A stretch of DNA of 64,000 nt from an uncultured Flavobacteriaceae bacterium. Its GTDB lineage: Bacteria; Bacteroidota; Bacteroidia; Flavobacteriales; Flavobacteriaceae. Position 1 is the stretch's first letter. The number at the start of each line of letters is the position of its first letter. This document shows, piece after piece, positions 1-29,121 of this stretch. The notes beneath the pieces were generated by a model, which searched no databases, was not told the origin of the DNA, and saw nothing but the letters and a program-made list of their open reading frames with translations. Location of the stretch: NCBI GenBank assembly GCA_938011315.1, contig CALLUG010000008.1, forward strand, positions 1 to 64,000, in the 5' to 3' direction. The translations under genes and the position numbers were made by a program.

Positions 1-35
1 AAAACAAGAGTAATCTTTTAAATTTCGATTATTAA

Positions 36-953
36 TTAAGCTGTTACTTTATTTTTTCTAATAAGGTGTTTATCTTGATTCCATTTTTCCATTGGCGTTA
101 CTCGTCCTAATAGTCCATGTAGCCTTCTATTATTGTAAAATTTCACGTAGCGTTTAAGTATTTGCTCTATTTCTCCAAAATATTGATAATCGAATCTTTT
201 GAATACTTCTTTTTTTAATATTCCGTGGTAGGCTTCGATATGTGCGTTCTCTTGTGGAGTCGCAATGTGTGTAAATTCTTGTTGCACACCTATCATACTT
301 AAATATTCACGTACTTTTATAGCTATAAATTGACTTCCATTATCACTTCTAATCACAACATTTTTAGGGTAGTCATAATTCTCTAAAAGCTGTGAAAGTA
401 ACTCTATAACGTGGTTTTGCTTGATATTGAAAGAGAAATAATCTTTCAATATTCTACGTGAATGGACATCAATAACAGAGAGTAGATAGGCGTTTTTACC
501 CACCCTAGGTATCCATACCATTTTTATATCCATTTCTAAGCATTCTAAGGGTCTAGAGGTTTTTACTTTTCTAAATTTTACAAATTTACGTCCAGAACCA
601 CTTCTATTTATTCTATCACCAAGCTTTAAGAGTCCTTCCTGCTGCATAATTCTGTATAACTTTTTATGATTGATTATATATCCGTCTCTTGTTAAATAAC
701 TAGTCATCAATCGATAGCCACAATCTATAAATTCGTGCTGTAAAATCTCTTTAATGGAAGCTACTACATCTTTTTGTAGCACAAACCCTTTGGTGTTATG
801 AAAAGTCCTTTTAGAGGGTATATTTCCTTTTTTACCACCACTAGGCTTTCTATAATAGCTACTTGACACAATACCAACCATTTTTATAATCTTACTCTTG
901 CTAATTTTGTGTTTTTTATACATAGCGTCTACTAAATCTTTCTTGGATCGCAC
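36..953 (-). CDS. IS3-family transposase OrfB (DDE integrase core)
   Basis: This 305-residue protein is the catalytic half of an IS3 transposase; it cuts and joins the element's ends. An N-terminal HTH_21-like region is followed by a retroviral-integrase-type core. The three catalytic acidic residues are visible: Asp in LEMDIKMVWI, Asp in VIRSDNGSQF, and Glu in ENAHIEAYHG. It lies in the -1 frame relative to orfA and overlaps it by 22 nt. It is therefore probably made mainly as an OrfAB fusion by ribosomal slippage, though the local ATG could give OrfB alone. The frame is intact, so the element may still be active. Confidence 0.9.
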   Translation of the reverse strand: MRSKKDLVDAMYKKHKISKSKIIKMVGIVSSSYYRKPSGGKKGNIPSKRTFHNTKGFVLQKDVVASIKEILQHEFIDCGYRLMTSYLTRDGYIINHKKLYRIMQQEGLLKLGDRINRSGSGRKFVKFRKVKTSRPLECLEMDIKMVWIPRVGKNAYLLSVIDVHSRRILKDYFSFNIKQNHVIELLSQLLENYDYPKNVVIRSDNGSQFIAIKVREYLSMIGVQQEFTHIATPQENAHIEAYHGILKKEVFKRFDYQYFGEIEQILKRYVKFYNNRRLHGLLGRVTPMEKWNQDKHLIRKNKVTA

Positions 954-1243
954 GTTCCAAACTTTTTTTTTAAAAGTTCGCGATGAACTTCAAGTTCTAT
1001 CTCTCTATCGCTTAGTAATTTTCTTAAAACACGATTCTCTTCTTCGGCTGCTTTTAATTCCTTGCTCTTAGAGTCATAGGTAACTTTTAAGCCTGCTTCA
1101 CCATTGCTCTCAAATTTCTTCTTCCAGTTATAGAAAGTTCCTGTACTCAAACTGTATTTTCGGCAAGCTTCAACAATGCCGATGTCTTCTGAAACAGATA
1201 GTATTTCTAACTTCTGTGCTAAACTCCACTTCTTGTATTTCAT
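932..1243 (-). CDS. IS3-family transposase OrfA (helix-turn-helix)
   Basis: OrfA, 103 residues, is the DNA-binding half of the IS3 transposase. The N-terminus (KKWSLAQKLEILSVSEDIG, then ACRKYSLSTGTFYNWKKKF) is a helix-turn-helix of the transposase_8 type that recognises the terminal repeats. Residues from about 60 to the end form a Leu/Glu-rich coiled coil (ELKAAEEENRVLRKLLSDRE), as in other OrfA proteins that multimerise. A run of nine A on the coding strand (T at 963-971 on the plus strand) just before the overlap is a typical -1 slippery site that would join OrfA to OrfB. Confidence 0.9.
   Translation of the reverse strand: MKYKKWSLAQKLEILSVSEDIGIVEACRKYSLSTGTFYNWKKKFESNGEAGLKVTYDSKSKELKAAEEENRVLRKLLSDREIELEVHRELLKKKFGTCDPRKI
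963..971 (-). promoter_or_regulatory. Probable -1 ribosomal frameshift site of the IS3 element
   Basis: Nine A residues followed by G on the coding strand lie inside the end of orfA, just upstream of the orfB start. orfB is in the -1 frame. Runs of the A6G type are the usual slippage site of IS3 elements; that slippage occurs here is inferred. Confidence 0.65.
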
Positions 1244-1296
1244 ATCTCAAATATATTTATTTGAAATTTAAAATATCACTCCGAATTAATAAGGGG

Positions 1297-1974
1297 CTAA
1301 ATTATTTTAGTAATCATATTCCAAATTATGACGGCCAATTTTCTTGCTGTAGCAGTAATTGCATACACTCTCCCTTTTCTAAAATTAATTCTATGAAAAA
1401 AACTTCTTAGAGGCGTACTGTCTTTTAAGTTTCCAATTGAGTTTGCGGCATTTCTTAGCGCTATTTTGAGCCTGCTACTTCCTTTTCCAATTTTGCTAGA
1501 TAGCACTTTACCACCGCTGACTTTGTTGTTGGGTGCGAGTCTAAACCAAGAGGTAAAGTCTTTTGCGGTCTTAAATTTCTTGATACCACCATGTCCAACT
1601 TAACTCATAATGTTAAGTACCGTATTATAGCTCATTCCTTCAATGGCAAGTAGATCTGTTCCCTTAAACATCTGATAAGATTTCAGGTTGATGTCAATAT
1701 TTTGAGGAGTGTTTTTATTGATGCGTTTATATGGTTTTTCATCGATATGGTGTTCTTTTTTTTCAGGGTCTTTACCTGTTATGTCGTCTAGTTTTTGATC
1801 AATTTGATCATCACATTCTTTTATTTTCTTTTGAATAAACTCGTAGGTGTCCAATTCGTCTTTAAGTGCATAGAGAAAGTCTTTAAGTCCATTACTATGT
1901 AGTGCTTTAGCTATTTCTTCTTCGCTTTTTTTACAGTTATAGTGGCTTGAGACTCGCTGAAGTTTCTGGGGCTA
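1297..1974 (-). pseudogene. Decayed IS110-family transposase, 5'-truncated with internal stop
   Basis: One reading frame on the minus strand runs from about 1974 to the stop at 1297 and is broken by an in-frame TAA at 1600-1602. The upstream part (LHSNGLKDFLYALK ... GTDLLAIEGMSYNTVLNIMS) and the part after the stop (VGHGGIKKFKTAKDFTSW, then RLAPNNKVSGGKVLSSK) are the linker and the C-terminal transposase_20 domain of IS110/IS116/IS902 transposases. The usual residue at the stop is Glu, so a single substitution explains it. The N-terminal RuvC-like catalytic half is missing: the frame meets unrelated sequence at about 1975, where a palindromic attC-like element begins. The gene is inactive. 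Confidence 0.85.
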
Positions 1975-1984
1975 TGGGGGATTG

Positions 1985-2117
1985 TAGGTAACGGTCTAGT
2001 ATAAGAAAAGTAGGGCAGTTGTAAGCAGTACTTTCTGTTTAGAACAGAACTTTCAACAACGATACTACATTTGGGTTTAGTACTAAACCGCTATTAATTT
2101 TATACAGTGTTAGTCAC
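1985..2117. repeat. attC-like imperfect palindrome A
   Basis: This element of about 130 bp folds on itself: the left arm (TAACGGTCTAGTATAAG, then AAAAGTAG at 2006-2013) pairs imperfectly with the right arm (GCTATT at 2090-2095, TTATAC, GTTAGTC). It has the same architecture as element B at 3830-3967: AAAAGTAG and GCTATT boxes lie 84 and 85 bp apart in the two copies, with GTATA/TATAC motifs just outside. The right outer box GTTAGTCAC (2109-2117) contains the stop codon of the STAS-like gene. Boxes of this kind are reminiscent of R and L boxes of integron attC sites; that identity is my inference. Confidence 0.6.
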
Positions 2118-2415
2118 TGACATTTTCTTGAATTGCACTTTGAATTCCAATTTTTATAATAGATTTCAAATCATCAGAAGCATTTACTACTTCAATATTT
2201 TCGAAAAATTTTTCTGCTCCTAAAGTCACATATAATTTTCCAAATATTTGTTTTGCACAAAAAGTTGCCATTGACCTAATTTTCTTTAAATCAAGCGAAA
2301 CTTTATTATCAGCTTTTAAATTTTCAGTGATTATTTTCAGTATTTTACCCCCTGACTCTTTTGTACTTATAATTGGACCAAAATCATCTAAATTTATATT
2401 TTTCATTATTTCCAA
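2110..2415 (-). CDS. STAS-like domain protein (DUF4325 type)
   Basis: This 101-residue soluble protein matches the pattern of the STAS-like DUF4325 family: a central strand VSLDLKKIRSM followed by the helix CAKQIFGKLYVTLGAEKF, equivalent to the hydrophobic strand plus FADELFGKLY-type helix of that family. STAS proteins serve as anti-anti-sigma or phospho-switch partners of GHKL kinases. Candidate phosphoacceptors near the strand end are Ser48 and Thr51, but no experimental site is known to me. It is the last gene of a three-gene operon, overlapping the ATPase gene upstream by 10 nt, which suggests coupled translation and a physical partnership. Its stop codon lies inside the GTGACTAAC box of element A. 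Confidence 0.65.
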   Translation of the reverse strand: MEIMKNINLDDFGPIISTKESGGKILKIITENLKADNKVSLDLKKIRSMATFCAKQIFGKLYVTLGAEKFFENIEVVNASDDLKSIIKIGIQSAIQENVSD

Positions 2416-3347
2416 TTTATTTTTATATCGTTAAATTTTTTATTGTCGTGACTTTCAATATTACTTAAAGTTACAGGATTTTTTAAAGGTAAGGACAAGT
2501 AAATAATTGTACCTTTCCAATATCCACATTTTTTTGCAAATTCTTTGCCAAAGTCATTTTTGTAATAAGCACCTTCTGAATATATGTGAAATCTTCCTTT
2601 AACTCTGTGAGCAATTTGATTCAAAATCCAAAGCCCATAACCCATATGATTTGTCATCTTTTTTGAAGTAACAAATTTTTCTACCGCTTTTTTTAATGTT
2701 GCAGGTCTATTAATTGAACTGTTTTCAAAAACTCTGTTGAGAGTTGTGATAATTCCATTTCCAGTATCTGCACAAGCAATCTCAATATGATTATCGTTAC
2801 CTTCCGCTACGAGAATAGAATTAGTATCATCAACTGCGTGTTCCCAAAAGTTTAAAAGTATTTCAGATAAACACAAAAATATCATAGAAACTACCTTATC
2901 ATTTTTTTTGTAATAATTTTCGATTTTTGGCAAAAATTCTGACTTCAAAAACTTGTCAGAATAGTCTTTTGAGCGCAATAATGCTTGTGGTGCAATAATG
3001 AACCTATCATCCACTCTTACTTTTAGGTTTTTATAATTTCTTTCCGTTAAATCTTTATTTGAAACAAATGAATGAATAAGTTTTGTGAAGCCGTATCTTT
3101 CCCATTCTTTTTCTATATAAGGATTTACGTATAAGTTTGGTTTTCTAAAGCAATTGTGTTTGTATGTATACTCGATAAATTTATAATTCAGTAATATACC
3201 AAGTAGTGATGTTTTTTTTACTTTTTGTAAATTTATTACAACATCAGGTACAAGTTTTTCTTCCATACTGAAAGCTTGTTCCAATGAATTTAAAAGTTCG
3301 TAGGTCGAATTTGGTTTTAGTATTTTAGGAAATTCAAATAATATCAT
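2406..3347 (-). CDS. GHKL-type ATP-binding protein (histidine-kinase-like/anti-sigma-like)
   Basis: The 313-residue protein carries a Bergerat-fold ATPase domain at about residues 140-295. The N-box is SEILLNFWEHA with Glu162, Asn166 and Glu169-His170; the G1 box is ADTGNGI with Asp194; the G2 box is GYGLWIL at 236. There is no DHp dimerisation domain and no obvious phospho-His, so it resembles SpoIIAB/RsbW-like or HATPase_c_5 proteins rather than a classical sensor kinase. Residues 1-95 look like a diverged STAS-like fold (DVVINLQKV ... YGFTKLIHSF). It overlaps the upstream membrane-protein gene by 4 nt (ATGA) and the downstream STAS-like gene by 10 nt. A partner-switch with the STAS-like protein is a reasonable inference; the target is unknown. 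Confidence 0.75.
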   Translation of the reverse strand: MILFEFPKILKPNSTYELLNSLEQAFSMEEKLVPDVVINLQKVKKTSLLGILLNYKFIEYTYKHNCFRKPNLYVNPYIEKEWERYGFTKLIHSFVSNKDLTERNYKNLKVRVDDRFIIAPQALLRSKDYSDKFLKSEFLPKIENYYKKNDKVVSMIFLCLSEILLNFWEHAVDDTNSILVAEGNDNHIEIACADTGNGIITTLNRVFENSSINRPATLKKAVEKFVTSKKMTNHMGYGLWILNQIAHRVKGRFHIYSEGAYYKNDFGKEFAKKCGYWKGTIIYLSLPLKNPVTLSNIESHDNKKFNDIKINWK

Positions 3348-3805
3348 TTATTAAAAGAAGATGATAGTTTGTCAAAAAACTTAATTTCGGTTGCATAATC
3401 TTTCTTTCTATAATCAGATGCAACTGTTTTAAAATAATCAGTTGTTTCGTACATCAATTTAAGTTCTTTTTTTTCAATATATATTTTATTAGAACTTATA
3501 TCTTTTTCTGTTTCTTGTATTGATTTTAAAAGATTTTCAGAATCATCTTTACCAACAAAAAAAGTCATTTTATCTAATTTTTGATAAATAGTCTCAAATA
3601 TTGAAATTCGCTTCTCTTCTTTAATTTTGAATGAGATTATTTTCTTGTCTTTATTTTTTAATCTATGTTGTGATATTATATTTATAATTGTAGTTATTAA
3701 GTTTATTGAAATAAATACTACTAAAGCAACAAGCAATTTGTTATTTAAAGCAATATCTTTTGAATAGCCTTCAATTAAATCTTTTAAAATTCCGAAATTG
3801 TTCAT
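3344..3805 (-). CDS. Small membrane protein of the GHKL/STAS operon, function unknown
   Basis: I do not recognise this 153-residue protein. One clear membrane segment lies at about residues 24-46 (KLLVALVVFISINLITTIIN), preceded by a short N-terminal tail and followed by a charged, Lys/Glu-rich cytoplasmic or periplasmic part of about 105 residues with helical character. It has no signal-peptide cleavage site. It is first in the operon and overlaps the ATPase gene by 4 nt, so it may be the membrane anchor or sensor of the system. Its upstream region begins directly with box GTTAGTCAC of element B, leaving only about 25 bp before the ATG, so the promoter must lie in or beyond that element. Confidence 0.6.
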   Translation of the reverse strand: MNNFGILKDLIEGYSKDIALNNKLLVALVVFISINLITTIINIISQHRLKNKDKKIISFKIKEEKRISIFETIYQKLDKMTFFVGKDDSENLLKSIQETEKDISSNKIYIEKKELKLMYETTDYFKTVASDYRKKDYATEIKFFDKLSSSFNK

Positions 3806-3829
3806 TTATGTTCTTCAGTTTTTTTGTTT

Positions 3830-3967
3830 GTGACTAACCTTGTTGTATATGAAAAGTAGTAGGTTGAAAATCTTCGTTTTTAAATTAAAAACAAAGATAT
3901 CAGAAAAGCGCGAAACTTATAGTTTAACTCTTAACTGCTATTTTTTATATACTTCTTTGCTGCCAGT
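3830..3967. repeat. attC-like imperfect palindrome B
   Basis: The second copy, in the same orientation as element A. The left arm GACTAACCTTGTTGTATATG plus AAAAGTAG (3852-3859) pairs imperfectly with the right arm GCTATTTTTTATATAC (from 3937) and CTTTGCTGCCAGT (3955-3967). Spacing between AAAAGTAG and GCTATT is 85 bp, against 84 in element A, while the loop sequences differ. The left outer box GTGACTAAC (3830-3838) is the perfect complement of GTTAGTCAC at the far end of the operon. That is what a cassette boundary would show before excision. No protein-coding signal was seen in it. Confidence 0.6.
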
Positions 3968-4059
3968 AGTGCTTTATTCTGTTATTCGTTTTTCATCATT
4001 CATTTTAGATGGGTTCTGTCTCGTGTCAAAAACATAATTTATTATTACTTAATTATCCA

Positions 4060-4272
4060 TTAGCCTGTATATAATTTAAAGTTTCCGTTTTTAAAATCCA
4101 ATTCAGACTTTTTAATTCTATTGATTAACTCCTCAAAAGTAAATGATTTTAAATCTAGATTGTATTCAATTTCTGTTTTCAGGGTATAATTTTCTAGTTT
4201 ATCAAAAAATATTTCATCCTTAATTTGAGCCAAGTATGTTATTAAATTGAGTTTTCTAGTTTGTAAATCCAC
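4060..4272 (-). CDS. Orphan antitoxin-like small protein
   Basis: This 70-residue protein resembles the small antitoxins that precede RelE/ParE toxins in Bacteroidetes. The N-terminus MDLQTRKLNLITYLAQI, a short Leu/Glu-rich middle, and the closing pattern FTFEELINRIKKSELDFKNG fit the usual 'T-EEF--RI--S--D--NG' ending. The resemblance is from memory of the family pattern, not a search. No toxin gene follows: downstream is attC-like element B. It may be a solitary antitoxin, a remnant, or a protein of another kind. It sits alone between boxes CTTTGCTGCCAGT (3955) and ACTGCCAACAAAG (4341), which are inverted relative to each other. Confidence 0.5.
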   Translation of the reverse strand: MDLQTRKLNLITYLAQIKDEIFFDKLENYTLKTEIEYNLDLKSFTFEELINRIKKSELDFKNGNFKLYTG

Positions 4273-4340
4273 GATTCAAGTATTTAATCAAAAATACAAT
4301 TTTTTACTTATTATTTAATTAATACGGTTTTTTTCGCATT

Positions 4341-4432
4341 ACTGCCAACAAAGTTACAGCAATACTAATTTATAGTTTCTTTTCAAAATCTCAATAAAAA
4401 TCATCACTATAAAACGATTTTTATTTAGTATT
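4341..4432. repeat. Nested inverted repeats C before scoA
   Basis: Box ACTGCCAACAAAG (4341-4353) is an 11/13 inverted match to CTTTGCTGCCAGT at 3955. Inside, AATACTAA (4361-4368) pairs with TTAGTATT (4425-4432), and AATAAAAATC (4393-4402) pairs perfectly with GATTTTTATT (4416-4425), giving an AT-rich hairpin of about 70 nt. It could be a degenerate third attC-like element, or a terminator or leader hairpin for scoA at 4456. It lacks the AAAAGTAG/GCTATT boxes of A and B. Confidence 0.4.
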
Positions 4433-4455
4433 TTTAAAACTTAAAACTAGAGCTA

Positions 4456-5154
4456 ATGATTAATAAAAAAATAGATACAGTCTCACAAGCATTACACGGT
4501 GTAGCCAATAATATGACCTTAATGCTTGGTGGTTTTGGACTGTGTGGTATCCCAGAAAATGCTATTGCCGAGTTAGTTAAGTTAGGAGTTAAGGGGCTAA
4601 CCTGTATCTCTAACAATGCAGGGGTAGATGATTTTGGTTTAGGTTTATTGCTCCAAAACCGACAGGTTAAAAAAATGATTTCTTCATATGTAGGAGAAAA
4701 TGATGAGTTTGAACGCCAAATGCTAAGTGGAGAACTAGATGTAGAACTACTACCACAAGGAACTTTAGCAGAACGTTGTAGAGCAGCACAAGCTGGTTTT
4801 CCTGCAATATACACCCCTGCTGGCTATGGTACTGAAGTTGCAGAAGGGAAAGAAACTAGAGATTTTGACGGAAAAATGTATGTTTTAGAACACGCCTTTA
4901 AAGCTGATTTTTCGTTTGTAAAAGCTTGGAAAGGCGATGAGGCAGGTAATTTAATCTTTAAAGGAACTGCAAGAAATTTTAACCCCAATATGTGTGGTGC
5001 AGCAAAAATAACAGTTGCCGAGGTCGAAGAGTTACTACCAGTAGGAGCTTTAGACCCCAATCAAATCCATATTCCAGGAATTTTTGTACAACGTATTTTT
5101 GAAGGAAAAACCTATGAAAAACGTATTGAACAACGTACCGTTAGACAAAAATAA
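4456..5154 (+). CDS. scoA: 3-oxoacid CoA-transferase subunit A
   Basis: Subunit A (232 residues) of a succinyl-CoA:3-ketoacid type CoA-transferase, which moves CoA between succinyl-CoA and acetoacetate or similar acids and so feeds ketone bodies or branched-chain products into central metabolism. The glycine-rich [15 protein letters not shown] near residue 25, [15 protein letters not shown] and [16 protein letters not shown] are hallmarks of the family, and the length is usual. The ATG at 4456 gives the expected N-terminus. The gene is followed after 44 bp by scoB in the same direction, so the two form an operon. It is the only clearly metabolic unit within the accessory region. Confidence 0.92.
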
Positions 5155-5198
5155 AACCCACAACCTTACGAGTTATAGCTCATAAAACAACACACATT

Positions 5199-5855
5199 AT
5201 GTTAGACAAAACAGGAATAGCAAAACGAATAGCAAAAGAGGTACAAGATGGTTACTACGTAAACTTGGGCATAGGCATCCCAACTCTAGTCGCAAATTTT
5301 GTTAGAAAAGATATAGACGTAGAATTTCAGAGTGAAAATGGTGTTTTAGGCATGGGCCCCTTCCCTATTGAAGGTGAGGAAGATGCCGACATTATTAATG
5401 CCGGAAAGCAAACCATAACCACCCTAGATGGAGCTAGTTTTTTTGACTCCTCATTAAGTTTTTCGATGATTAGAGGTAAGCATGTCAATCTAACCATTTT
5501 AGGAGCGATGGAAGTTTCCGAAAATGGAGATATCGCCAACTGGAAAATACCTGGCAAAATGATAAAAGGTATGGGGGGAGCCATGGATTTAGTAGCTAGT
5601 GCAGACAATATTATCGTTGCTATGATGCACACCAATAAACGAGGCGAATCCAAACTTTTAAAACGCTGTTCTTTGCCACTAACGGGCGTAAATTGTGTAA
5701 AAAAAATAGTAACAAATTTGGCAGTTTTACAAGTAACAAACAAGGGATTTAAACTCTTAGAACGTGCCCCTGGAGTTTCCGTAAACACCATTAAAAACGC
5801 TACTGAAGGCCACTTAATTGTCGAAGGCGATATTCCTGAAATGGTATTGGAGTAA
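5199..5855 (+). CDS. scoB: 3-oxoacid CoA-transferase subunit B
   Basis: Subunit B (218 residues) supplies the active-site glutamate that forms the enzyme-CoA thioester. It is visible in FQSENGVLGMGP at about residue 47. Further family signatures are GYYVNLGIGIPTLVANF at the N-terminus, GGAMDLVASA, and the C-terminal EGHLIVEGDIPEM. The length is normal. Together with scoA it makes the heterodimeric enzyme in the cytoplasm. Beyond the gene lies a T-rich run and then decayed sequence, with no further operon members. Confidence 0.92.
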   Translation: MLDKTGIAKRIAKEVQDGYYVNLGIGIPTLVANFVRKDIDVEFQSENGVLGMGPFPIEGEEDADIINAGKQTITTLDGASFFDSSLSFSMIRGKHVNLTILGAMEVSENGDIANWKIPGKMIKGMGGAMDLVASADNIIVAMMHTNKRGESKLLKRCSLPLTGVNCVKKIVTNLAVLQVTNKGFKLLERAPGVSVNTIKNATEGHLIVEGDIPEMVLE

Positions 5856-5905
5856 CGTTTTTTTTTTTGACTTTATGTAGTGTTATATCAATTGTTGTTC
5901 TTTTT

Positions 5906-6090
5906 ATGTTGCACTTTAAAATGCCAACAGCGGAGAAAATTTCAATCAGAGAAATAACGGGATTTGAGGAAAAAACAGATTCTCATTGAAACTGAAAAAT
6001 GGAAAGAAAAGGAATTTAGGAAATTTTAAAGACCAATTTGAATTAGTAAAAGTTCGTGAGTTATTTACTGAAATTGGAATAGCGAACTGA
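5906..6090 (+). pseudogene. Decayed small gene with a frameshift
   Basis: From ATG at 5906 the frame reads ...AEKISIREITGFEEKTDSH and stops. A neighbouring frame continues as SLKLKNGKKRNLGNFKDQF, then ELVKVRELFTEIGIAN, ending in TGA at 6088-6090. The two halves read like one protein C-terminus broken by a single indel near 5980. A pattern of a 'LKLKNGKKR' strand followed by 'ELxKLFTxIGI' is seen in small membrane-associated proteins of Bacteroidetes, but I cannot name the family. The N-terminal part is missing. It ends 12 bp before attC-like element D. Confidence 0.45.
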
Positions 6091-6101
6091 TTAAAAAAAC
6101 A

Positions 6102-6237
6102 GGTACAACAATGCATAAAAATAATTGCTCTGTTTTGGGCTTAACCAAAGGTTGTTGCAAGTTTATTACGTTTGATTTTCTTGCCGAAAATCTTGGCACG
6201 CAAACCCGCAACTATCTTTTTACGAGATTGCTACACC
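6102..6237. repeat. attC-like imperfect palindrome D
   Basis: An element of about 136 bp whose left arm (GGTACAACAATGCATAAAA, then ATAATTGC) pairs imperfectly with the right arm (GCAACTATCTTTTTACGAG, then ATTGCTACACC). The inner boxes (CATAAAAATA and CTATCTTTTTA) echo those of A and B, and its length is nearly the same. It directly follows the decayed gene at 5906-6090, as an attC site follows its cassette gene. The sequence between the arms is not coding. Confidence 0.45.
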
Positions 6238-6312
6238 AATTGTTACGTAAAATCAACTATAACTAACTTGAAATATAGTTTGTTTAGATGACATAGAAAA
6301 CCTAAACATTAC
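6235..6312 (+). repeat. MITE-like repeat, truncated diverged copy
   Basis: Begins ACCAATTGTTACGTAAAATC and continues with CTATAACTAACTTGAAATAT and AACCTAAACAT, matching the left half of the dispersed repeat best seen at 15797-15945. The right half is missing. Its first bases abut or overlap the end of element D. Confidence 0.5.
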
Positions 6313-6353
6313 ATTCATAAATAGACCGCTAAAACAATTGTACACTACTAATG

Positions 6354-6488
6354 CTAGTTGCTTCTATTTTCAAAATCTTCATTTTTTTTAATTTTTAATC
6401 GTCTAAAAATTAAGTAAACAATAAGAACAGCAAAAACAACCCACATAAGTAAATAAGCATTCAAAAAAAAAGAGGCTAAATTATCCAT
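6354..6488 (-). CDS. 44-residue single-pass membrane protein
   Basis: This small ORF starts inside the end of the YbjQ-like gene (ATGGATAA, 8-nt overlap including its stop), which is typical of coupled genes. It reads MDNLASFFLNAYLLMWVVFA, then VLIVYLIFRRLKIKKNEDFE: one membrane helix at about residues 10-28 followed by a basic then acidic tail. The positive charges after the helix predict a cytoplasmic C-terminus. I know no function. The tight overlap and clean membrane pattern argue that it is real; its partner is likely the YbjQ-like protein. Confidence 0.6.
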   Translation of the reverse strand: MDNLASFFLNAYLLMWVVFAVLIVYLIFRRLKIKKNEDFENRSN

Positions 6489-6798
6489 TTAACTTAACAG
6501 CAGTTCCGTAAGCCAAAATTTCTGAACAACCTTGCATTACCATCGATGTGGTTAAACGTACGTTTACAATAGCATCGGCACCCATACTTTGGGCGTCTTT
6601 AATCATTCTTTGCATTGCTTGTTCTCTGGAGTCTGCTTGTAGCTTAGTATATTCTTCAATTTCTCCTCCAACAATATTTTTTAATCCCGCAAAAATATCT
6701 CTCCCAATGTTGCGAGCCCTTACGGTACTGCCTCTTACGATTCCGAGAGTTTCAGTGATATCATGGTTTGAAACTTTTTCAGTTGTAGCTATTATCAT
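6481..6798 (-). CDS. YbjQ family (UPF0145) protein
   Basis: A complete 105-residue member of the YbjQ/UPF0145 family, annotated elsewhere as a putative heavy-metal-binding domain. The signature features are the start MIIATTEKV, the stretch ETLGIVRGSTVRARNIGRDI, the helix TKLQADSREQAMQRMIKDAQ, and the closing GADAIVNVRLTTSMV with GCSEILAYGTAVKL. Members form pentamers; their role is not settled. A small membrane protein gene overlaps its 3' end. No regulatory site was seen upstream except a MITE-like repeat 80 bp away. Confidence 0.88.
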   Translation of the reverse strand: MIIATTEKVSNHDITETLGIVRGSTVRARNIGRDIFAGLKNIVGGEIEEYTKLQADSREQAMQRMIKDAQSMGADAIVNVRLTTSMVMQGCSEILAYGTAVKLNG

Positions 6799-6877
6799 TT
6801 TATTTTTTTTTGATTAAATATCTGTAAACTTAAGCAAATAAAGTTATAAAAAAAAAGCAACAACTAGTCAATAGTTA

Positions 6878-7032
6878 TACTTATTGTTATTTAAAATAAG
6901 TTATAACTAATTTGAAACATACTGTGTTTAGATAACCTAAACATAGCCAGCCTTAGTTACGTTTGGGATTTATAGTAATATGTAGGGCACAATAGAAATG
7001 AATGATATGCTTATTTTGAGTCATAATTGGTG
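6878..7032 (+). repeat. MITE-like repeat, full-length copy
   Basis: Starts with TACTTATTGTTATTTAAAAT and ends with TTATTTTGAGTCATAATTGG and TGT, i.e. imperfect terminal inverted repeats. The centre holds ACCTAAACATAGC and CCTTAGTTACGTTTGGG, the inner hairpin of the family. It occupies most of the 334-bp space between the divergent ybjQ-like gene and aspS. Confidence 0.7.
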
Positions 7033-28835: not shown

Positions 28836-29121
28836 TACCTCTACGAACCAATTCTAACTTTAGGAGTGGTTTGACTTTACCATTCCAATTCTAATACAAT
28901 TATAACTTTTATTTATTGTAGATTTGTATAATTATTTGCAAATACGCAAGCAATTAGGCGAAAATAAAAACATGCCACCTAATATCATCTACAAATAGCA
29001 GTGACTTTAACGTTTAATTAAAGTTAATTTTTTTATCTTTAAAGTCAATTAAAACACGAAAAATTAGCATGTTAATCCATTGTTATTTATACAAAAAACA
29101 CTAACATAACATATAAAAACG

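Follow-up and report, generated by a model that had tools for sequence, protein, structure and literature searches.

Hairpin-flanked gene cassettes on a Flavobacteriaceae contig as a probable remnant of an integron-like system of Bacteroidota

RESULTS

We analyzed a 64,000-nucleotide stretch of DNA from an uncultured Flavobacteriaceae bacterium (contig CALLUG010000008.1, positions 1 to 64,000; hereafter the window), in which two attC-like hairpins, elements A and B, flank a three-gene operon. Elements A and B are very probably attC-type sites, and the operon an integron-type cassette, within a Bacteroidota system that resembles integrons. What the window preserves is a small remnant of this larger system, which has its own integrase group and its own site family and whose recombinase apparently lacks the part normally used to recognize integron enzymes. 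The case for integron-like function is drawn from sequence: the complementarity of facing boxes, one-way arrays, gene polarity, and repeated cassettes with exact limits support the cassette reading put forward in a first-pass annotation of the window.

Element A spans positions 1979 to 2122 and element B positions 3825 to 3969, both on the + strand. In A, the AAC of the left box ends at 1992 and the GTT of the right box begins at 2109; in B, the left box ends at 3838, and the right box, from 3959, has its GTT mutated to GCT. The motif AAAAGTAG begins at 2006 and 3852 and GCTATT at 2090 and 3937, with start-to-start distances of 84 (A) and 85 (B), the spacings already reported in the first pass. 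Compared with shuffled sequences, both elements fold as hairpins, with z scores of -2.6 (+) and -2.7 (-) for A and -1.9 (+) and -1.3 (-) for B; 11 of 200 shuffles of the B + strand folded equally well. Element A scored 126 bits with covariance model R1, which has A among its seven training rows, and 95.4 bits with model R2, which gave 89.3 bits for B.

Integron logic predicts that a box should pair with the one at the opposite end of its cassette and not with the one across its own hairpin. As predicted, the boxes that face each other across the operon, GTTAGTCAC (from 2109) and GTGACTAAC (to 3838), match at 9 of 9 positions, after which come one mismatch, the G.T wobble of box position 11, and three further matches, whereas A's own two boxes, and likewise those of B, show no such pairing. 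In the second facing pair, formed by the boxes from 3959 and to 4349, 11 of the first 14 positions match, and position 11 again holds a G.T wobble. The cassettes had been delimited as 2118-3829 and 3968-4340. Because the mobile unit takes in the hairpin, we move these limits: predicted cassette 1 (hairpin A plus the operon, - strand) runs from about 1992 to 3837, and predicted cassette 2 (hairpin B plus a 70-amino-acid [70-aa] gene, - strand) from about 3838 to 4348. The ends of cassette 1 are predicted to fall inside AAC, following the pattern of repeated cassettes in other arrays, sixteen families of which have their crossover inside AACG. The genes of both cassettes are on the - strand, so that hairpin A comes after the operon, at its 3' end, and hairpin B after the 70-aa gene. 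We read the window as holding a two-cassette remnant located away from the integrase.

The genome holds further copies. Element A as a plain query recovered them in fragments only, and a short exact pattern gave 6 matches against 5 for its reversed control; both approaches were superseded by R1, built from seven complete copies found in the window's genome. At E ≤ 0.1, R1 matched 104 of 120 genomes of the window's family, and at E ≤ 1e-6 it matched 101 of 120; per-genome element counts from these genome-wide searches are lower bounds. R1 gave 230 hits in 464 kb of fetched stretches, and 150 of these were used to build R2 for array searches; alignments A2, A3, and A5 hold 150 of 230, 150 of 168, and 150 of 153 hits, respectively. 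The 412 R2 rows reduced to 406 elements after overlap removal, spread over 22 contigs of 13 genomes. Single-orientation arrays were seen in genomes G068 (90 of 90 elements, in 77 kb), G101 (60 of 60), G014 (53 of 53), and G112 (48 of 48). We are highly confident that these hairpins and their cassettes form an integron-like system present in many Bacteroidota genomes.

The facing-box rule was borne out well beyond chance in the attC-like family. AAC was located in 383 of 406 elements. Of the classical R-box consensus GTTRRRY, the GTT was at its expected place in the right box in 387 of 406, the remaining positions varying by cassette. In 343 facing pairs (same strand, gap of at most 4 kb), positions 4 to 9 agreed in 94, 94, 91, 90, 90, and 87% of cassettes, compared with 28 to 57% for the boxes of one element and 26 to 51% after shuffling. 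Over positions 4 to 12, there were 2,391 matches out of 3,087, against 1,155 ± 29 in 1,000 within-contig shuffles (maximum, 1,259), and position 11 was a G.T pair in 279 of the 343 pairs. Since the boxes lie outside the base pairs of the model, the rule was not imposed by the search. It was repeated in nine genomes that had not been used for the models, one of them from the window's family, with agreement of 81 to 95% (n = 42) versus 25 to 54% for the boxes of one element.

Among 397 genomes of the family, the histidine-kinase-like ATPase (HATPase) gene of the window's operon was present in the window's own only, making a comparison of the same cassette between genomes impossible, so we used the repeated cassettes of other arrays instead. 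Sixteen families of cassettes at least 95% identical occur at different places, every family consisting of repeats within one genome; in addition, one cassette, 89% alike, is common to G068 and G314. Repeated cassettes have the hairpin, inner box, gene, and far box in common, while the neighboring box differs and identity drops past the far box. In all sixteen families, identity switches at either side inside AACG, where the classical G^TT crossover lies. Gene polarity agrees with this: in 371 segments with a gap of 60 to 4,000 bases, the longest open reading frame (ORF) is antiparallel to the element in 297, and 20 have no ORF. Gene stops lie a median of 3 nucleotides from the element edge.

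The stem of the hairpins shows covariation. In R1's seven copies, 88% of cells are paired versus 79% after shuffling, with a covariation score of 0.275 versus 0.146 and none of 500 shuffles as high. Three larger alignments, which are fitted to structure, score 0.60 to 0.70, whereas shuffling gives 0.15 to 0.16 and sliding no more than 0.13. While other pairs change freely, a single stem pair stays G.T in 146 of 148, 143 of 150, and 59 of 61 rows; in some copies, spacers are unpaired and a base may be extrahelical. Folding favors the strand opposite the genes in 372 of 406 elements (equal in 4), with a mean energy of -20.1 kcal/mol compared to -17.7 kcal/mol for the other strand. Where one strand has a G.T pair, the other has a C.A mismatch, and from this asymmetry we infer that the conserved wobbles may aid the choice of strand.

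Many arrays adjoin a tyrosine recombinase of roughly 270 to 400 aa. Such genes lie beyond the gene-5' end of the arrays in G014, G101, G068, G087, G056 (two), G021, G112, and G061, as well as in G108 (contig C3) and G072 (contig C50). A PF00589 search found no integrase on the window's contig, but the draft genome carries one on another contig, C49 (C49:746-1864). The first pass had described the window as resembling a cluster of attC sites lacking an integrase (CALIN); this is too simple a description, since the window has none but its genome has the C49 integrase, accompanied by an attI-like site. The catalytic motifs are kept in the array integrases. With the IntI model, 8 of 8 scored 183 to 213 bits, below the cut-off of 265, and aligned in two stretches; the gap between these is 24 residues, versus 67 in IntI4, that is, about 43 fewer (insert length was measured for 23 of 26 array-type integrase rows, and the IntI figure comes from the IntI4 alignment alone). 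The array integrases therefore lack the IntI-specific additional domain, and a classical IntI integron was set aside because the integrase has no such insert and falls under the IntI cut-off. Their top NCBIfam model is NF040815, for which 5 of 8 reach the 220-bit cut-off and 3 of 8 score 201 to 214.

We examined 18 integrases, most of them oriented like the cassette genes. For 17, a partner of the nearest cassette's inner box was found that matches at 5 of 7 positions or better. The partner lies 26 to 111 bp from the integrase gene for 16 of the 18; in G101, two ORFs of transposase-like appearance stand between partner and integrase, and in G157 no partner was found. A palindrome (at least 9 of 11) follows the partner's AAC at 13 of 17 sites, compared with 3% of 4,800 random segments. 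The window's genome has both box and palindrome, at C49:691-733. By its position, the site next to the integrase gene would be an attI.

Integrases of this type, scored as present at 235 bits or more on profile A6, occur in 83 of the 104 element-bearing genomes of the window's family and in 2 of the 16 others. Across 296 genomes of the phylum, elements and A6-type integrases co-occur (71/49/23/153; odds ratio [OR], 9.6; p = 8e-17). Near A6-type integrases of other genomes, R2 gave 61 hits in 13 stretches, 12 of which had hits. A scan of named genomes yielded 80 integrase loci, including Seonamhaeicola, Winogradskyella, Algibacter, Zunongwangia, Flavobacterium, and Algoriphagus; elements were found at 22 of them, only downstream and on the opposite strand at 19 and only upstream and on the same strand at 3.

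We considered whether the window holds ordinary attC cassettes that a classical IntI captured and kept from elsewhere and that are now stranded as a CALIN. The GTT core, the crossover position, and the opposite-strand bias are as in classical attC sites, and one study reports that an attC of Polaribacter phage P12002L, which has elements of the attC-like family, worked with IntI1 (PMC9892861). However, in the same 296 genomes, elements do not co-occur with IntI (29/91/57/119; OR, 0.67; p = 0.15), the IntI list being the 86 genomes that match at 1e-60, 85 of them above the curated cut-off. None of these 86 belongs to the window's family, yet 25 of the 30 family genomes in the set have elements. 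At 12 IntI loci (161.6 kb in 13 overlapping sources, of which L101 and L121 are the same gene and six cover only about 3.6 kb), R2 gave zero hits at E ≤ 1. G157 and G173 have both kinds of integrase, with their arrays at the A6-type one, although G173 also has one element on its IntI contig, about 45 kb from IntI. Finally, an attI-like site adjoins the array integrase. We therefore regard the stranded-cassette explanation as very unlikely.

Still less probable is that the host XerC/XerD or another recombinase moves the cassettes and that the adjoining integrase is incidental. Although the window's genome has recombinases of the XerC and XerD types, to which the array integrase is related, the array integrase has a fixed place, with an attI-like box 26 to 111 bp from its gene for 16 of the 18 examined, and its co-occurrence with the elements is specific. 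The idea that the hairpins are MITE/REP-like or IS200/IS605-type transposon ends, terminators, or structured RNAs that lie between genes by chance can hardly be upheld: they are indeed imperfect palindromes, mostly at gene 3' ends, but such sequences would lack cassette-specific pairing with a box past the gene and would not exchange inside AACG, and Rfam gave zero matches at E ≤ 1 in window positions 1 to 7000.

Several findings weigh against an integron-like system served by the array integrase. In the window, along with the mutated GTT of B, no hairpin lies past the box ending at 4349, and nothing recognizable lies beyond it. The integrase of the window's genome has a frame open over 378 codons, but its first ATG gives 329 aa, and its start is ambiguous; in the sole genome of the same genus, G059, elements are present while the integrase is below threshold. 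No integrase of this kind lies within the array stretches G072:C54, G108:C2, and G116:C23, and 21 of the 104 element-bearing family genomes have none at 235 bits. Conversely, 58 of the 80 loci in named genomes have no element, many of these being distant relatives or cut by contig ends. The longest ORF is parallel to the element in 54 of the 371 segments.

To place the array integrases, we used a 50-row tree, which has few outgroups and 7 IntI rows, all from Bacteroidota broadly defined (four near-copies among 11 IntI rows were omitted, and two loci yielded no row). The 26 A6-type integrases, the 7 IntI, and 4 others group apart from XerC and XerD (support, 99/98). The IntI rows form a single clade (100/100) with a long stem (0.93), and nearest to it are INT_G289 (97/94) and INT_G153, neither shown to lie beside arrays; no element was found in the fetched stretch of G289, and the element check covered neither G153, G328, nor G135. 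A group of the 26 integrases without IntI was rejected (p = 0.008), as was the same group minus G289 and G153 (p = 0.0006). The 22 rows with an element in the fetched stretch were also rejected as a group of their own (p = 6e-11), a grouping that splits clearly related rows. When four related recombinases were allowed in and IntI, G289, and G153 were left outside, the group was not rejected (p = 0.26). Thus, IntI groups with the array integrases, and it may be either nested among them or sister to them.

AlphaFold2 gave the array integrase a tyrosine recombinase fold with a predicted local distance difference test (pLDDT) score of 81; its closest structural neighbors are XerA, IntI4, and an archaeal Xer. 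In the long forms, the first 75 residues (pLDDT, 89) are similar to the XPB damage-recognition domain (Z = 7.7; 1.5 Å over 56 residues) and, less strongly, to the HARP domain of SMARCAL1 (Z = 4.6; 1.6 Å over 48), Z scores under 8 being a level that may reflect a common arrangement only. By sequence, the best Pfam match of this domain had an E value of 0.098 and the best PDB match one of 0.97. We take the modeled likeness to XPB and HARP as a lead only.

The operon of cassette 1 encodes, all on the - strand, a 101-aa STAS-like DUF4325 protein (2110-2415; PF14213, E = 5.9e-9, above cut-off), the 313-aa HATPase (2406-3347; PF02518, E = 3.5e-6, above cut-off), and a 153-aa protein of unknown function without a Pfam match above cut-off (3344-3805). 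The gene of cassette 2 (4060-4272, - strand) encodes a 70-aa protein, also of unknown function and without a Pfam match above cut-off. It had been called antitoxin-like, a label that we could not support, its best Pfam match being DUF1040 (E = 0.026, under cut-off). A PADLOC search with the four cassette genes returned nothing convincing (best E = 0.0044). In two other arrays, 110 cassette genes match 58 Pfam families at E ≤ 1e-5; the 25 families displayed match 1 or 2 genes each and include Imm7, WapI, EcoO109I, ParD, KAP NTPase, and HerA-like proteins.

Elsewhere in the window, a third element of the family lies in reverse at 6096-6243 (- strand; R2, 63.8 bits), downstream of two + strand ORFs (4456-5154 and 5199-5855) and with no clear cassette partner. 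A weak R1 match at 28973-29113 (- strand; 30.2 bits, E = 0.0019) is absent from the R2 results at E ≤ 0.01. The - strand of 36-1854 holds transposase-type ORFs (rve, HTH_Tnp_1) and then, adjoining element A, short ORFs without a Pfam match that may be an IS110-type remnant. The window's contig holds no intact array (two elements on the + strand and one on the - strand), and the genome's own contig C7 is similar (one + and one -). On C19, C42, C49, and other contigs of this draft genome (G000), elements stand close to contig ends, and the array was probably broken by assembly.

Other arrays showed further features. Many near-identical short cassettes stand in tandem in L064-L065 (G101) and in L087 and L093 (both G112); some of those in G101 and G112 measure about 160 to 450 bases and are probably geneless. 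A second, different tyrosine recombinase gene lies inside a cassette array of G014 (C1:2765999-2766475, - strand, within L062). Relatives of the integrase core were also found in metagenome assemblies labeled as archaea, Spirochaetota, and other phyla (L182, L190, L197, and others), for which binning errors are possible, and one element lies close to a Spirochaetota-labeled relative. Classical IntI above the curated cut-off was found in 85 of the 296 genomes of the broad phylum.

DISCUSSION

We propose that a cassette consists of a gene or short operon followed by its hairpin site and that it supplies the two halves of its outer box itself. On the strand opposite the genes, an 18-bp stem would form, with a G.T wobble that hardly varies; in the closed cassette, pairing of the outer boxes would extend over about 14 positions and include another conserved wobble. 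We infer that the array-linked tyrosine recombinase would bind this folded strand, cut it within AACG, at the classical G^TT position, and join it to a double-stranded attI-like site by the integrase gene (AAC, then a palindrome centered about 17 bp on) or to the site of another cassette.

A broader idea, which we put forward tentatively and as a whole, is that the array system represents an older and wider integron lineage without the IntI-specific (I2) domain and that IntI integrons are one derived branch of it; G.T wobbles in stem and outer box would decide the choice of strand, and the XPB- or HARP-like N-terminal domain of the long forms would help to read folded single-stranded DNA. If so, cassette recombination through a folded strand would predate the I2 domain and could do without it. 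The gain of an I2-like domain has been proposed to have enabled recombination at single-stranded sites (PMC4792948). Integrases that apparently manage without I2 and group with IntI make the question of its origin testable.

A literature search, which did not cover preprints, found no description of such a system. According to the IntegronFinder 2.0 survey, only In0 elements had been found before in Bacteroidetes, to which one complete integron (Salinibacter ruber) was added, with others in Chlorobi and Ignavibacteriae (PMC9024848). Bacteroidota are among the phyla with integrons in a review (PMC8618304), and the excerpt available of a paper on taxon-specific attC models does not mention Bacteroidetes (PMC8352920). 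IntI is recognized through PF00589 together with an IntI-specific profile (PMC9668308), and this two-profile recognition would explain why the array system was missed. Its scale is considerable, with an element in 101 of 120 family genomes at E ≤ 1e-6 and arrays of up to 90 elements, and a large pool of cassette genes is opened to search.

The system resembles classical integrons in its one-way arrays of directly oriented sites, in the order of gene then site, in the outer boxes with a GTT core of which each cassette supplies both halves, in the place of the crossover at that core, in the better folding of the strand opposite the genes, and in the site beside the integrase gene. It differs in that the array integrase lacks the IntI-specific insert and scores under the IntI cut-off, that long array integrases have an extra N-terminal domain, that the attC-like family is unmatched at 12 IntI loci, that its sites have a long covarying stem with a conserved G.T wobble, and that the array integrase mostly shares its orientation with the cassette genes (18 cases). 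Among recombinase families, XerA-like NF040815 ("site-specific tyrosine recombinase/integron integrase") is the best NCBIfam model, reached at cut-off by 5 of 8 array integrases, whereas 3 of 8 fall short; we know of no cassette arrays described for this family.

Another known system close to this one is the CALIN of P12002L, in which R2 finds nine elements at 28 to 39.5 kb; they lie in a lytic phage (L234), beside DNA methyltransferase genes. Five of the eight facing-box pairs there match at 5 or 6 of positions 4 to 9, one with the position-11 wobble, whereas the other three match at only 2 of 6. Two attC sites of this phage are treated as ordinary attC in the study; one of them, attC2, which could not be assigned to any one of the R2 hits, was recombined by IntI1, and the top strand gave no recombinants (PMC9892861). 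Sites of the attC-like family may thus already have worked as attC.

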